Shown here piece by piece: positions 4,101-27,443 of a stretch of DNA of 33,346 nucleotides (position 1 is its first letter; every line of letters starts with the position of its first letter). Position numbers and translations under genes: made by a program. Source of the stretch: Candidatus Altimarinota bacterium (GTDB lineage Bacteria > Patescibacteriota > Gracilibacteria > BD1-5 > JAGOOR01); the NCBI GenBank assembly GCA_023268615.1, contig JALQUC010000004.1:1-33346 (forward strand), written 5' to 3'. The notes below the pieces were generated by a model. That model searched no databases. It had not been told where the DNA came from and saw only the letters and a list, made by a program, of their open reading frames with translations.

Positions 4101-5074
4101 GCTCATTTTTTTGGTTTGATTTTTGCTGTGTAGACACCTGCATCTGCTTCAAATGATATACCGTCAGCCTTGATAATCTGATGGACTATGACTCGCTCAA
4201 CACCATTGACGATAAATGTCCCCTTCGAAGTCATAAGTGGGATACCTCCCATAAATACTGTGTCTTCTTTGATTTCACCTGTTTCTTTATTCAACATTTG
4301 AAGTTTCACGCGGAGATATGATTCGTAGTTGAGATTTTTTCTACGACATTCCTTTGGGCTATAACGAGGTTCCTCGAGCTCCATTCATTTGAAGTGAATC
4401 TCGACGCGTTCTTCTGAAAAATCTGTGACCGGGAAAACACTCTCAAGTGCCTCTTGAAGCCCGTAGTCGAGGAATGATGCATATGAATCAAGCTGTGCAG
4501 CGATGAGCTCAGGCATCTCAACAATAGAACGATCTTCTGTGAAGAAGTGTCGACCAGAGCGGACATAGAGTGCTCCGTGTGTTGGTTTCTCGACACGAGC
4601 AGACTTGATGATGACTGGAGATGGGACATCTCGTTTTGAGACTTTTGGTTCTGCAATTTTTTTCTTTGATGCGAGCGTTTTTGGGCTGAGTACTTTTTCT
4701 GGTTTTGGTGCTTTCTCCTTCTTATCCTTCGTTGCTTTTGGTGCAGATTTTACAGGTGCAACTGGTTTCTTTGCAACTGGTTTTGCAGGAGTTTTTACTG
4801 CTTTTTTTGCAACCTTGGTCACGATTTTTTTTGCTGGAGCTTTTTTTGCGACAGGTTTTTTGATAACTTTCTTTGCAGCCGGTTTTGCCACTTTTTTTGC
4901 AACGATTTTTTTTGCTGGAGCTTTTTTAACTGGCTTGGTTGTTTTAACTGGTTTTTTAACAGCAACCTTCTTCAGAGGAGGTGTCTTTTTGACTGGTTTT
5001 TTTGCTACTTTAGTGCTCTTTGGAGACACTTTCGTACCTGCTTTTGCAGGTTTGGTGGTTTTTTTCGCAGTCAT
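1169..5074 (-). CDS. rpoB: DNA-directed RNA polymerase subunit beta with Lys/Ala/Pro-rich N-terminal tail
   Basis: Catalytic beta subunit of RNA polymerase, 1301 residues, continuous only when three in-frame TGA codons are read as Gly (2291-2293 in TKL-G-PE, 4103-4105 in KPKK-G-AWLEF, 4385-4387). The first two fall on glycines conserved in E. coli RpoB (TKLGPE, YRGSWLDF). Canonical blocks follow in order: [78 protein letters not shown]. The rifampicin-pocket region is mostly conserved, but PIETPEGPN reads PIATPEGPN. Residues 1 to about 148 are a low-complexity tail with roughly 50 lysines and repeats such as KKAPAKKIV; normal RpoB homology starts near residue 175. Two T8 runs (A8 in the sense strand) lie in the tail. 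rpoC follows after 28 nt, and a strong promoter lies upstream. Confidence 0.97.
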
Positions 5075-12884: not shown

Positions 12885-13316
12885 TTATTCTGCTGGAGTC
12901 TCTGCTGGAGCTTCTTTCTTTGCAGGAGCCTTCTTGGTTGCTTTTTTTGGAGCGTCTTTAGATACTTTGACTTCTTTGAGACGAGCTGATTTTCCTTGGA
13001 GTTCACGGATAAATCTGATATTCTTACGATTCACTTTGTACTGTCGGATCACCTCTACACCTTCGAGAGTCGGGCAAGAGATTGGAAAAGTCTTCTCGAT
13101 CCCGAGACCGTTTGTGACACGACGAACAGTAAAAGTTTTCTCGCCATGAGTCTTGCCACCAGTTTTGATGACGACACCTTCAAATTTTTGAATACGAGAT
13201 TTGTCTCATTCACGGATTCTCTGGGCGACTTCTACCTGCATTCCTGTACGGATCTGAGGAAAATCTTTCTTGCCAGCGGCGAGATTCTGAATATGTGCGA
13301 TAAGTGTTGCATCCAT
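12885..13316 (-). CDS. rplS: 50S ribosomal protein L19 with KAP-rich C-terminal tail
   Basis: 143 residues; a component of the large subunit at the 30S-50S interface. Family blocks include PQIRTGMQVEVAQRI, KFEGVVIKTGGKTHGEKTFT, VRRVTNGLGIEKTFP, CPTLEGVEVIRQYKVNR and FIRELQGKSARLKE. One TGA (13206-13208) is Gly in IRE-G-DKSRI. The usual protein ends near ARLKE; here about 28 further residues form a tail of Lys, Ala and Pro (KKATKKAPAKKEAPAE). This tail is similar in composition to the RpoB tail. It follows secY after 34 nt, unlike most bacteria where rplS sits with trmD/rimM. Confidence 0.96.
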
Positions 13317-15266: not shown

Positions 15267-16046
15267 CTATTTTTGCATGTTATATTTCTTAAGTGCTTCC
15301 ATAGTAGCATAGGCAGTAGTGATGACATTACGACCTCCATGGCGTTTTGAGAGAATATTCTGACAACCAGCGAGTTCGAGGATGCGTCGAGCAGAACCAC
15401 CAGCGATGATACCAGTACCTTCTGTAGCTGGATGAATCATGATCTTCACCGCCTTGAATTTTGTCTCAACCTGATATGGAACTGTACCATTTTCGAGAGG
15501 TATTTTGATGAGGCTTCTCTTTGCAGAATTGACTGCTTTTTCGACTGCGATAGATACTTCTCGTGCTTTGCCGAGGCCAAAACCAACACGACCATTTCGA
15601 TCACCGATGACGACAGCTGCACGGAAACGGAGCTGACGACCACCACTCGTGACTTTTGTTACACGACCGACTTCGAGGAGGACTTCTTCAAATTCTTTTT
15701 TGACTGGTTCAAATCCTGATTTACCACCACGACGGTCATCGCGACGACCACGATCACCACCAGATTTCTCACCTGATCGAGCACGACTCGGACGCTCTGC
15801 ACGGGCAGAGAGTGCTGTGAGCGGTGTTGCTCGGACAGCTGGAGCTGCTTCAGGAGTTGCTTCTTCTGCTTCATCAGATACTTCTGAAGATTCTTCAGAA
15901 GTCTCCTCAGCAACTTCAGATTCTTCTGAAGGAGTTTCAACTTCATGTATCTCCTCAGGAGTTTCATTGACTACTTCTGCAACATCAGCTGTTGTAGCTG
16001 AATTTTCTGCTTCAGCGTCTGTAGGTATGATTGTCTCGTCTGTCAT
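15267..16046 (-). CDS. rpsE: 30S ribosomal protein S5 with long acidic N-terminal extension
   Basis: 259 residues; E. coli S5 has about 166. The core starts near residue 112: FEEVLLEVGRVTKVTSGGRQ, VVIGDRNGRVGFGLGKA, REVSIAVEKAV, GTGIIAGGSARRILELAG, NVITTAYATMEAL. These are the RNA-binding and fidelity-domain motifs of the decoding-centre protein S5. Residues 1-67 are dense in Glu, Ser and Thr (EESEVAEETSEESSEVSDEA), and residues 80-110 are Arg/Gly rich (GGDRGRRDDRRGGKSG). The protein thus begins with an acidic then a basic unstructured tail. It has no TGA codon. The ATG at 16046 is 11 nt after the rplR stop. Confidence 0.96.
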   Translation of the reverse strand: MTDETIIPTDAEAENSATTADVAEVVNETPEEIHEVETPSEESEVAEETSEESSEVSDEAEEATPEAAPAVRATPLTALSARAERPSRARSGEKSGGDRGRRDDRRGGKSGFEPVKKEFEEVLLEVGRVTKVTSGGRQLRFRAAVVIGDRNGRVGFGLGKAREVSIAVEKAVNSAKRSLIKIPLENGTVPYQVETKFKAVKIMIHPATEGTGIIAGGSARRILELAGCQNILSKRHGGRNVITTAYATMEALKKYNMQK

Positions 16047-21211: not shown

Positions 21212-22066
21212 TTATGAAACTGAAGAATTAGAAGTAACACGAGATCCTCGCTTGTTAGTAGCGATCCATCTGTCTGTTCGTTTGTTTTTGCGAGTCTTGA
21301 CACCGAGTGCAGGCTTGCCCCATGGAGTAGTAGGCTGACGACCAATAGAGGTATGACCTTCTCATCCTCCGTGTGGGTGGTCTACAGGATTCATCGCAGT
21401 ACCGAGGACATGAGGACGACGCCCCATCCATCGACTACGACCAGCCTTACCAACAACAATCTGATTGTGATCTATGTTACTGACGACACCGATAGTTGCG
21501 AAACAATCTTTGTGGACGAATCGGACTTCACCTGAATTGAGTTTGATCTGAGTGTATTCACCTTCTTGAGAGACAACCTGAGCACTCGCGCCAGCAGAAC
21601 GAACTGCCTGAGCACCACGGCCGATAACGAGCTCGACATTGTGGACAAAGAGTCCAGTTGGAATATTTCCTACCTTCATTCTATTTCCTACAACAGCTTT
21701 TGCGTCAGCAGAAGTGATAATAGTATCACCGACCTTCATGGTCGAATGAGCGAGTACATAGCGGTGCTCTCCATCAGCGTCTTTAACGAGTGCTATAAAT
21801 GCAGAACGATTTGGATCGTATTCAATTGTTTCAACAACTGAAGGGATATCTTTTTTGCTAAATCGGAAATCGACCATACGGAGGCGTCGTTTGTGACCAC
21901 CGCCACGGAACCTCGAAGTTGTACGACCGTATGAATTGCGTCCACCACTGCTCTTGCGAGAAGTTGTGAGTTTCTTCATAGGTGTATCTGTCGTGATCTC
22001 GGCAAAAGCATTGCCTGTCATTCATCGACGACCGTTGGTAGTAGGTTTGTAGATTTTGATTGCCAT
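21212..22066 (-). CDS. rplB: 50S ribosomal protein L2
   Basis: 284 residues, close to the peptidyl transferase centre. Two TGA codons encode Gly: 22022-22024 in NGRR-G-MTG and 21362-21364 in HPHGG-G-EGH, both matching conserved glycines of L2 (the second is in the most conserved stretch of the family). Other blocks: [100 protein letters not shown] and [20 protein letters not shown]. Start ATG at 22066 ([14 protein letters not shown]). Confidence 0.98.
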
Positions 22067-24033: not shown

Positions 24034-24057
24034 TATAATGGAGAATAGGTATTCTCC
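24034..24057 (+). other. TATAAT box and perfect 8-bp hairpin after the small gene
   Basis: TATAAT (24034-24039) is immediately followed by the inverted repeat GGAGAATA-GG-TATTCTCC (24040-24057). A terminator follows 11 nt later. This may be a second hairpin in the 3' end of the small gene's mRNA, or a short independent transcript. No good -35 box is visible, so it is not called a promoter. Confidence 0.4.
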
Positions 24058-24067
24058 CTCATTGATT

Positions 24068-24097
24068 GGTAAGCAACTTTTTGCTTATCTTTTTTTT
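24068..24097 (+). terminator. Rho-independent terminator
   Basis: The stem GGTAAGCAA (24068-24076) pairs with TTGCTTATC (24081-24089, one G-U pair) over a 4-nt loop. A run of eight T (24090-24097) follows. It ends the transcript of the small gene at 23825-24025 and separates it from the HTH gene. Confidence 0.8.
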
Positions 24098-24124
24098 GCC
24101 ATTTTTTCAAAGCTCGTGTACAAT
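24096..24124 (+). promoter_or_regulatory. Promoter for the HTH gene; predicts a leaderless mRNA
   Basis: TTGCCA (24096-24101) and TACAAT (24119-24124) are separated by 17 nt. The usual start point, about 7 nt after the -10 box, coincides with the A of the ATG at 24131. If correct, the mRNA has no 5' leader. The -35 box overlaps the T-run of the preceding terminator. Confidence 0.6.
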
Positions 24125-24130
24125 GTTTAC

Positions 24131-24457
24131 ATGAATCTCACCGTCTACAATCCTGATGAACATGAAGAACCCAAAGAAGGCTCACCTATTCCTGAAGTAC
24201 GGGAAGAGGTAGAAAATATTATTTCATTTTCTGCCGCATCTCCTTATATGAGTATTGAGGAAGTAGCCACAATTCTCTGAGAAACACCCGAAGAAGTGAT
24301 GAAAGCAATTCTCAAGTGATGAATTCCAGCCACGGAAGTGGCCAGTGGATGGAGAATATTTAGAAATTTGTTTGAAGAGAGTAAGCCCGCGATTGCAAAT
24401 TATGTCAAAGAAAAAACAGAAATTGAAGGCTTCTCTCTATTCCCCTCAGAGGAATAA
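24131..24457 (+). CDS. Excisionase/MerR-like helix-turn-helix protein
   Basis: 108 residues, readable only with TGA = Gly (three codons: 24278-24280 and a tandem pair at 24313-24318). Residues about 38-82 match the excisionase-type winged helix (HTH_17): MSIEEVATILGETPEEVMKA, ILKGGIPATEVASGWRIF and LFEE. These correspond to the family pattern SVEEVAxLLGVSxxTVxRxIxxGxIPAxxxGxxWRI. The glycine of ILG-E and the double glycine before IPA are the recoded positions, and Gly is expected there. It is acidic at the N-terminus (PDEHEEPKEG). It probably binds DNA; the target is unknown. Gene-to-gene spacing places the metK promoter directly after its stop, so it may be transcribed into the metK leader. 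Confidence 0.75.
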
Positions 24458-24780: not shown

Positions 24781-25788
24781 ATGTTCAAAACCGCTGAATC
24801 CGTGTCTCCAGGACACCCAGACAAAATGTGTGATCAGATCTCTGACGCCATCCTCGATGCTTGTCTCGAGCAAGATCCTCTCGCTCGTGTCGCTATCGAA
24901 ACTGTCGGTGGTCACGGCTCCCTCGTTGTCATCGGAGAACTCACGACGACTGCTTTTGTCGATGTAAATCCTATCGCAAAACGTATCTGCTGAGGAAATA
25001 TAGGCGTCCTCGTCAATATCGTCCAACAGTCTCCAGAAATCGCACAAGGTGTCGATACAGGTGGTGCTGGTGATCAGGGTATCATGGTCGGTTATGCAAC
25101 ACGCGAAACTCCGACCTATATGCCGCTCGAATACGAGCTCGCACGCAGACTTAATGAATACCTCTGGGCACTTCATCCAAACGATGGGAAAACACAGGTG
25201 ACACTGGACACAATGACGAATGACGAATGACGAATGACGAATGGAGGAAGTCTCGTAGCAGTTGTTGCGAGCTGGTGTGGCGTACCTCGTACACAGCTCG
25301 AGCAAGAAGTACGAGCGTGGTTAGATACAGAAGCCCTCATCAAGCACTTAAATCGTGATGCCGTGAAGCTCCATCTCAATCCCGCAGGAGATTGGAATAT
25401 CGGCGGATTCACTGCCGACACAGGTCTCACAGGGCGCAAGCTCGCTGTCGATAACTACGGACCTCGTGTGCCTATCGGTGGTGGTGCTTTCTCAGGAAAA
25501 GACCCAACGAAAGTCGACCGTTCTGCTGCCTACAAGGCTCGCCAAATGGCGGTCAAACTATTAGAGGAAAAAGGAGCAAACGAAGTCATGGTACAAATCG
25601 CCTACGCTATCGGCTACCGCCACCCTGTCTCATGTGTCGCATGGATAGACGGTGTCGCAGAGAACCAGGATATCCTCCGTGATGACCTCACCCCTCAAGG
25701 CATCATCACCTCTCTCGACCTCTGCCGTCCTATCTACGAACAAACCGCTCGTTATGGGCATTTTGGTAGAGGGTATAGGTGGGGATAA
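24781..25788 (+). CDS. metK: S-adenosylmethionine synthetase
   Basis: 335 residues (E. coli 384). Makes S-adenosylmethionine from methionine and ATP, in the cytoplasm. The three family signatures are present: [20 protein letters not shown] (ATP site), [13 protein letters not shown], and [19 protein letters not shown] (phosphate loop and lysines). Two TGA codons are Gly: 24991-24993 in RIC-G-GNIGV and 25228-25230. The second lies inside a 7-bp tandem repeat encoding MTNDEGRMTN, in a segment between the GYA motif and the ASWCGV/EVRAWL part. Under the standard code the gene looks split into two, but the frame is intact. The 5' leader carries a SAM-I-type riboswitch and terminator. No Shine-Dalgarno sequence is seen. 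Confidence 0.96.
25213..25243 (+). repeat. Heptanucleotide tandem repeat (ATGACGA x4.4) inside metK
   Basis: Four perfect copies of ATGACGA (25213-25240) and a partial fifth. The unit length is not a multiple of three, so loss or gain of one copy would shift the metK frame, while three copies would not. One TGA of the repeat is in frame and read as Gly. Confidence 0.9.
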
Positions 25789-25797
25789 AATTAAATT

Positions 25798-26406
25798 ATG
25801 AAAACTTCTGGTTCTAAAAAATGATGTCTGTATGGTATATTATCTCCTATCTTAAACAGGAATTTACTCATATCAGTTCTGCCACTCTTATTTTTTCTAT
25901 TCATTAGCAATTTTTTGGATTATATTTTCGATACAGATAATCCATTCGAAAGAAATCAAGCATTTCTACCATTTGTCTTTTTGTTTATCATAGTTCAATG
26001 TTGATATTTTATTTTGTATTGATTAGAAAAAATACTTGAAACTGGGATAAAAATGAAAAATTTTAATTGGTATTTTCTGCATTATCTACAAATATTTTTC
26101 TATTTAGTATTATGATTTTCTATTAATTATTGGATCTTATTTCAAATCGATAATTCAAATTATTGAAATGTATTATCAACAAATTCATACGAACAGCTCT
26201 TCGATTTTTTCTATTTTAGTTTTACCAATATAACTACCATAGGGTCCAGTTCTATCATTGCCTTGAGTAGAACAGCTCAGTTTTATCTTATGCTAGAAGT
26301 TACAATGTGAATTATAATGCTGTGATATTTTCTATGATCTTTCTCTGAAATTCTGGGGACTTTTCAAAAACAAAGCAGTGTTTTCGTAAACAAAAATAAC
26401 AAATAA
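25798..26406 (+). CDS. Ion-channel-like membrane protein with altered selectivity filter (visible only with TGA = Gly)
   Basis: 202 residues with eight in-frame TGA codons, from ATG at 25798 to TAA at 26404-26406. Four hydrophobic segments lie near residues 22-43, 56-78, 94-115 and 161-183. Between the last two is FDFFYFSFTNITTIGSSSII (residues 135-154), which aligns with the pore helix and filter of two-TM potassium channels (YFSFxTxTTIGYGDI). It is followed by ALSRTAQFYLMLEVTMGIIM, the usual outer loop and inner helix. The filter reads TIGSSS rather than TxGYGD, so potassium selectivity is doubtful. It is notably AT-rich and uses more TTT/ATT/TTA codons than the neighbours, perhaps a sign of different origin. 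It lies 9 nt after the metK stop. The channel fold is inferred. Confidence 0.65.
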
Positions 26407-26407
26407 T

Positions 26408-26470
26408 ATGCCCGAAATCCTCAACATCATAGACATAAACGACCAGATAATTGGTCAGGCGACACGATAG
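26408..26470 (+). pseudogene. Remnant of a NUDIX/isopentenyl-isomerase-like gene (first 20 residues)
   Basis: ATG at 26408 opens a 20-residue frame, MPEILNIIDINDQIIGQATR, ended by TAG at 26468-26470. It closely resembles the N-terminus of NUDIX hydrolases of the IPP-isomerase-like group (ILDIVDENDNVIGxATR, followed by EEVH). No NUDIX box follows in any frame; AT-rich sequence and then another gene come next. Probably the 5' scrap of a deleted gene, 1 nt after the channel-like gene's stop. A chance match of a short peptide cannot be excluded. Confidence 0.45.
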
Positions 26471-26504: not shown

Positions 26505-27443
26505 ATGAAACTCTGGTATTTCTTCAAACTCTTTGTTTTTCTCCTCATCGCAGGACTCACCTATCAACATCGAGATGAGATCATGCTCCGGGTCAGGACT
26601 GCTGTGCATGCGTACTTCCCTTGTACAATTCCTGTGACCTATTCTCTGGGTCAATTTGATACGCAGTTTGGATTATCGCGTGCGGATTTCCTCATGCGTA
26701 TAGCGACTGCCGAGAATGCATGGGAAGATGTCGCAGGAAAAGAACTCTTCAAATATGTCGAGAGTGGTGGGGACATGACGGTCAATCTCATCTATGATGC
26801 GAGGCAGCAGACGACGGAGAAACTCCAAGAGATAGGAGATACTATCAGTGATAAAAAATCTACTTACGAGAAATTATGGGCAGAGTATGAAAGGCTGTCT
26901 GCCGAGCTCGTCAAAGAAAAAACAGCCTACGAGAGAGAGGTCGCACAGCTCAAGAATCTGCAAAGTGCATACCAGAGAGAGGTCGCACGGGCAAATAAGC
27001 GAGGAGGAGCAGAAGAAGCAGAATACGATAGACTCGAGACGCAACGACTCGAGATAAATAAGCGCGTTGCAGAGGTGAATGGCTCACTGTCGCGGCTCAA
27101 TAAGACCATCTCAGCAACCAATACTCTCGGTGCTCAGGTAAATGCACTCGTCCAGGAATTAAAACTCAATGTCGATATCTACAATACAACTGGTCGGACA
27201 AGAGGAGAAGAATTTAGCGAAGGAGAATACATCTATGACTCCGAGGGAAAACGCATCAATATATACGAATTTAGCGATACGACCAAACTCGCTCGTGTGC
27301 TCATACATGAGCTCGGACATGGGATCCAGATGGAACATGTCGAGGACAGTGATGCTATCATGTACCGCCTCAACGCTGGAAAAAATGACACTATCACTGA
27401 GGCGGATCAGGCAGAGCTCAGAAGGGTATGCCGAATCAAGTAA
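26505..27443 (+). CDS. Membrane-anchored coiled-coil zinc metalloprotease (matrixin-like)
   Basis: 312 residues from ATG at 26505. A hydrophobic N-terminal segment (about residues 4-20, FFKLFVFLLIAGL) is a signal anchor or signal peptide. Residues about 100-225 form a long coiled coil rich in Glu, Lys and Arg. The C-terminal domain has HELGHGIQMEH at 268-278, which fits the HExxHxxxxxH zinc site of metzincins, followed by DSDAIMY, a typical Met-turn. A conserved EGEYIYDSEGKRINIYEF lies just before. The protease is likely at the outer face of the cytoplasmic membrane, with the coiled coil as spacer or partner-binding part. No TGA codon. An upstream non-ATG reading (26451) is less likely. The catalytic assignment is well supported; the substrate is unknown. 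Confidence 0.8.
   Translation: MKLWYFFKLFVFLLIAGLTYQHRDEIMLRVRTAVHAYFPCTIPVTYSLGQFDTQFGLSRADFLMRIATAENAWEDVAGKELFKYVESGGDMTVNLIYDARQQTTEKLQEIGDTISDKKSTYEKLWAEYERLSAELVKEKTAYEREVAQLKNLQSAYQREVARANKRGGAEEAEYDRLETQRLEINKRVAEVNGSLSRLNKTISATNTLGAQVNALVQELKLNVDIYNTTGRTRGEEFSEGEYIYDSEGKRINIYEFSDTTKLARVLIHELGHGIQMEHVEDSDAIMYRLNAGKNDTITEADQAELRRVCRIK

Follow-up and report, generated by a model that had tools for sequence, protein, structure and literature searches.

What does a gene encode when its product has the pore helix of a potassium channel, enters the selectivity filter as T-I-G, and then carries three serines where Y-G-D is expected? This is the question raised by one locus in the window, the whole stretch of 33,346 nucleotides of a Candidatus Altimarinota genome that was analysed here. 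Translation of positions 25798-26406 with table 11 gives no listed ORF of at least 80 aa, while reading TGA as sense gives a single frame of 202 codons with TAA at its end, uninterrupted by TAA or TAG despite a G+C content of 26%. Judged by its sequence, the gene is real and more than a chance open frame. The initial annotation described 202 residues, eight TGA codons, the string YFSFTNITTIG followed by SSS, and low G+C, all of which the sequence bears out; its remark that the gene is invisible to standard gene finders holds for table 11 and fails for any caller run with code 25. A second correction concerns the code, in which TGA stands for glycine and not for tryptophan. Within the gene for ribosomal protein uL2 (window 21212-22066), TGA lies inside the stretch HPHGG-TGA-EG, which we take to be the uL2 motif HPHGGGEG, and TGA is therefore glycine in this genome, an assignment that the profile comparisons described below also favour. 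The code in which TGA encodes glycine (code 25) is known from BD1-5/Gracilibacteria and SR1; no tRNA was found in the 33,346-nt window. With TGA as glycine, the profile Ion_trans_2 (PF07885) scores the protein at 26.3 bits (E=7e-6), above the Pfam cut-off of 22.5, which is the similarity to channels that the initial annotation had anticipated. The gene and its parts are as follows.

25798..26406, + strand: channel-like gene of 202 aa with four TM helices, one pore loop, eight TGA codons read as glycine and a TAA stop (ORF and profile scores)
25858..25932, + strand: first hydrophobic helix, residues 21-45 (hydropathy; both low-confidence AF2 models)
25963..26037, + strand: second hydrophobic helix, residues 56-80 (hydropathy; both low-confidence AF2 models)
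26068..26148, + strand: third hydrophobic helix (residues 91-117), which is the outer pore helix and contains F107 and Y111 of the family (hydropathy, AF2, alignment)
26191..26235, + strand: pore (P) helix, residues 132-146, running into the filter (profile alignment, AF2)
26236..26253, + strand: filter segment T147-I-G-S-S-S152 (sequence)
26269..26355, + strand: fourth helix (residues 158-186), which is the inner pore helix (profile, AF2, hydropathy)
26308..26310, + strand: TGA codon of G171, at the gating-hinge position (alignment of surveyed pores)

The filter is encoded by ACC ATA GGG TCC AGT TCT (26236-26253) and is directly preceded by the pore-helix string FDFFYFSFTNIT. The inner half (T-x-G) is retained as T-I-G, Y-G-D is replaced by S-S-S, and the K+-selective signature T-x-G-Y/F-G is absent; the proline that follows the filter is also lost (GSSSIIAL). 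In the alignments, the outer helix, pore helix and inner helix with its hinge glycine are all in register with Ion_trans_2. This hinge residue, G171, stands 22 residues past the filter glycine, a position occupied by glycine in 67 of the 78 other Patescibacteria pores surveyed; KcsA has the same spacing of 22 between filter G77 and gating-hinge G99. GxGD is kept in 75 of these 78 pores, a sample that mixes best-scoring pores with hand-picked weak ones and is thus not a random draw, and the three exceptions are KirBac-like proteins with GTSPL or GSSPL. Just one other Ion_trans_2 protein is found in the genome of the window, a six-TM protein with a canonical TTIGYGD filter. The positions of the filter and hinge residues, together with the profile and family evidence, support the view of the initial annotation that the protein is a relative of channels without the potassium filter.

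Filters that depart from the canonical sequence in other ways are found in characterised channels. In one study (PMC5052707), NaK (TVGDGNFS) is described as non-selective, CNG channels have TIGETPPP, and NaKTs of Tsukamurella paurometabola (LPMGNGPLSP) is described as a non-selective, Ca2+-activated cation channel. NaK and CNG pores share with the window protein an inner T-x-G and an altered outer half, but they are 2TM or 6TM proteins with D-G or E-T as the outer residues in place of S-S, and the window protein, with four helices and TIGSS, lacks both the 2TM layout and the TVGDG that define the NaK type. NaKTs resembles it in standing alone as a bacterial channel and in having a filter far from the canonical one, and differs in its 2TM layout, its filter sequence and its Ca2+ gating through a proline motif that is absent from the window protein. 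A parallel within the same phylum is seen in KirBac-like proteins (L012:1348-2265, L013:1324-2268 and L020:1345-2268), which have TTLG[ST]SPL at the position of the Kir TxGYG-type filter, that is, TTLG followed by S/T-S for Y-G; they differ in being 2TM proteins with a Kir-type C-terminal domain that form a separate clade at 100/99. This altered KirBac-like filter spans two genera of one Patescibacteria family, and an IRK_C domain was identified in L012 and L020. The literature gave no characterised serine filter of the GSSS kind.

The relatives of the window protein were approached through profiles, and two of these, built without it, give it 50.6 and 37.5 bits; none of the 3000 shuffles run for each profile, which preserve local composition, scores as high. 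Among solved structures, the best sequence match is the K2P channel TREK-2 (4bw5, E=7e-4), a weak match that covers one pore half; TREK-2 and TRAAK, the closest solved structures by sequence, differ in having 4TM chains with two pore loops each and GYG-type filters. A scan of the genome collection gave one relative, L005 from a Crocinitomicaceae MAG (31% over 118 residues, TIGYGD), and searches around its genome added L102 (GYEG), L108 (GYGD), L109 (GFGD) and L119 (GLGD), each a frame of 176-192 aa whose single pore loop precedes the last helix. A family of uncharacterised proteins of about 180 residues, with four TM helices and one pore loop (4TM/1P), is present in five Bacteroidota genomes. 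The L102 protein (L102:1459-1977), with GYEG for GYGD, is a second non-canonical filter in this family. Like these proteins, the window protein is in the range of about 180-200 aa, places its one pore loop ahead of the final helix and is similar over its full length, with hydropathy and helix pattern giving four helices and one pore in 202 aa; the Bacteroidota proteins differ in their identity to it (19-25%), in their GYGD, GFGD, GLGD or GYEG filters and in their use of the standard code. When the five alone were made into a profile, it aligned to residues 19 to 179 of the window protein, with a high hydrophobic bias of 18.8 bits in the match. Residues 1-126 alone score 19.1 bits with this profile (best of 3000 shuffles, 13.9), while the general pore profile gives no signal on them. 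When the window protein was aligned with four of the Bacteroidota proteins (five rows in all), D41, F107, Y111, Y139, S141, G149, I153, S157 and A160 were invariant. A tree of the pore region places the window protein as sister to the five Bacteroidota proteins at 87/81, under the usual thresholds and with long branches. Distant membership of the 4TM/1P family is therefore likely.

Orthologues were sought in the order (77 genomes), the class (353) and a sample of the phylum (380), as well as in phage records, plasmids and viral contigs, and none was found; the NCBIfam search returned no family. The best matches in the phylum have other architectures, among them 2TM proteins with a soluble N-terminal domain and KirBac-like proteins. 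Conservation of GSSS, which the initial annotation proposed to check in homologues, could therefore not be shown, nor could selection on the filter; the nearest relatives have GYGD, GFGD, GLGD or GYEG. As far as homology can tell, the protein is a channel relative that has lost the potassium signature, observed in one genome so far. AlphaFold2 was run on monomers, for the window protein alone and with one relative, and both models are poor (mean pLDDT 58 and 54, pTM 0.33) while placing the helices at the expected positions; Foldseek with the first of these poor models gave no meaningful match.

How the gene came to lie here is addressed by its composition and its surroundings. Its G+C content is 26.1%, against about 45%, the other genes examined having 40-52%. 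TGA provides 8 of its 13 glycine codons, compared with 51 of 805 in those genes (Fisher p=4e-7). The gene therefore looks foreign to its genome, and its low G+C and dense TGA glycine codons point to an AT-rich donor that already used TGA for glycine. A donor with the standard code would not carry TGA within genes, so the dense TGA suggests that the gene passes among bacteria with a common reassigned code; TGA-dense channel genes also occur in another family within the same order. A second gene that is possibly foreign, at window 24038-24457, encodes a small protein that matches HTH_17 weakly; TGA encodes 3 of the 6 glycines in its counted part. The immediate neighbours of the channel gene are the following.

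24781..25788, + strand: metK, upstream neighbour, intact to its C-terminal domain (domain search)
26408..26470, + strand: NUDIX-like gene remnant of 20 codons, immediately following the channel stop (comparison with G001)
26505..27443, + strand: Peptidase_M10-like (matrixin) protein, downstream neighbour, conserved in G001 (domain search, comparison)

The metK stop lies 9 bp ahead of the channel start. Conservation with G001, the one genome of the same genus, spans the block that runs from the M10 peptidase to yebC (93% identity for yebC). Upstream of this block, G001 has a 162-aa NUDIX-like gene (L101:87-575), so labelled from a reading of its sequence, and an antisense gene. The remnant in the window is 97% identical over 59 bp to this longer gene; the window keeps the first 20 NUDIX-like codons and passes to the peptidase, with the remainder and the antisense gene missing. 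Upstream of the conserved block, G001 showed no copy of the channel gene, and the 87 bases before the NUDIX-like gene, beyond which the contig ends, have no match to it; metK was not found in G001 either, so that the comparison covers the downstream flank. The locus is variable between the two genomes, and absence of the channel from G001 could reflect loss there rather than gain in the genome of the window. The short stretch L101:1-86 of G001, likewise AT-rich, seems to contain the last part of another gene. The site upstream of the NUDIX-like gene may be one that collects AT-rich accessory genes.

The reading we prefer, with a probability of about 0.5, is that the gene was acquired horizontally and encodes a subunit of a tetrameric 4TM/1P, poorly selective cation channel. 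Under this proposal, the donor would have been an AT-rich bacterium in which TGA likewise encodes glycine, and the gene product would be one subunit, with four subunits arranged around one pore. Since T-I-G and the hinge glycine are kept, a pore with the inner half of the filter should still form, its inner end lined by threonine and backbone carbonyls beneath the retained pore helix. Replacement of Y-G-D by serines would be expected to abolish the outer K+ sites and to leave the pore poorly selective. The non-canonical filters of NaK, CNG and NaKTs conduct, which makes a poorly selective cation pore our best guess, and conduction of ions other than K+ is plausible by the same analogy.

The main rival, possible but with the odds against it, is that the protein folds and assembles as a channel and does not conduct, either as a silent or modulatory subunit or as the product of a gene decaying in its new host. 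Its presence in a single genome, the loss of three filter residues together with the following proline, the long end branch in the pore-region tree (1.85) and the variable locus beside a gene remnant would all fit such a course. However, the 202-codon frame is intact and still encodes the pore helix, T-I-G and the hinge glycine, and no partner of the same topology was found, the sole other Ion_trans_2 protein of the genome being the six-TM protein with GYGD. For the regulatory or sensor role suggested in the initial annotation, nothing was found in its favour. A bolder extension of the preferred reading, which we regard as rather doubtful, is that TIGSSS marks a cation channel of an undescribed 4TM/1P family that is exchanged among bacteria reading TGA as glycine and has a selectivity unlike that of characterised pore-loop channels. 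Unlikely, in turn, is a serine-lined filter that is still K+ selective or sharply selective for another ion (Na+, Ca2+). CASTOR lacks TVGYG and yet selects Ca2+, for which its authors suspect an aspartate (PMC6697748), but this residue has no counterpart in the window protein, whose filter segment, unlike that of CASTOR, has no acidic residue, and the outer K+ sites have lost their tyrosine and second glycine.

It is highly improbable that the donor was Mollicutes-like, with TGA as tryptophan, and that the gene is now mistranslated in its present host. The 26% G+C and a TGA:TGG ratio of 8:2 would fit, and the tryptophan translation matches DUF2649 at 1.5e-4, below the cut-off of that family. 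Against this, when all 20 residues were tried at the eight TGA sites with a profile from 80 other pores that excluded the window protein, glycine ranked first (37.5 bits) and tryptophan last (26.1). Some of the 80 relatives themselves had TGA read as glycine, so the test was repeated with a profile of 28 pores from TGA-free ORFs, where glycine was again first (37.8) and tryptophan third from the bottom (28.8). The strongest single-site effect of residue choice is at G171. The five-Bacteroidota profile prefers small residues at the TGA sites, with serine first and glycine and tryptophan close together. With Ion_trans_2, the tryptophan translation scores 14.8 bits. Tryptophan at TGA was rejected, as it falls under the Ion_trans_2 cut-off of 22.5, loses the hinge glycine and scores low in both pore profiles. 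A non-channel hydrophobic protein that is channel-like by composition alone would account for the 18.8 bits of hydrophobic bias in the family-profile match, but is very hard to credit, as shuffles preserving local composition never attain the observed scores.

Should the poorly selective channel we favour conduct, its pore would consist of the inner T-x-G half alone and an outer ring of serines, and would provide a natural test of how much of a potassium filter a pore needs. The 4TM/1P layout is not among the topologies given in the available part of a recent K+-channel review (PMC12332018).

Several other genes of the window have unusual ends. RpoB (window 4600-5074, - strand) has a long Lys/Ala/Pro-rich N-terminal extension before its conserved body, uS5 (rpsE; window 15267-16046, - strand) has an acidic N-terminal extension, and bL19 (window 12885-13316) has a Lys/Ala/Pro-rich tail at its end.
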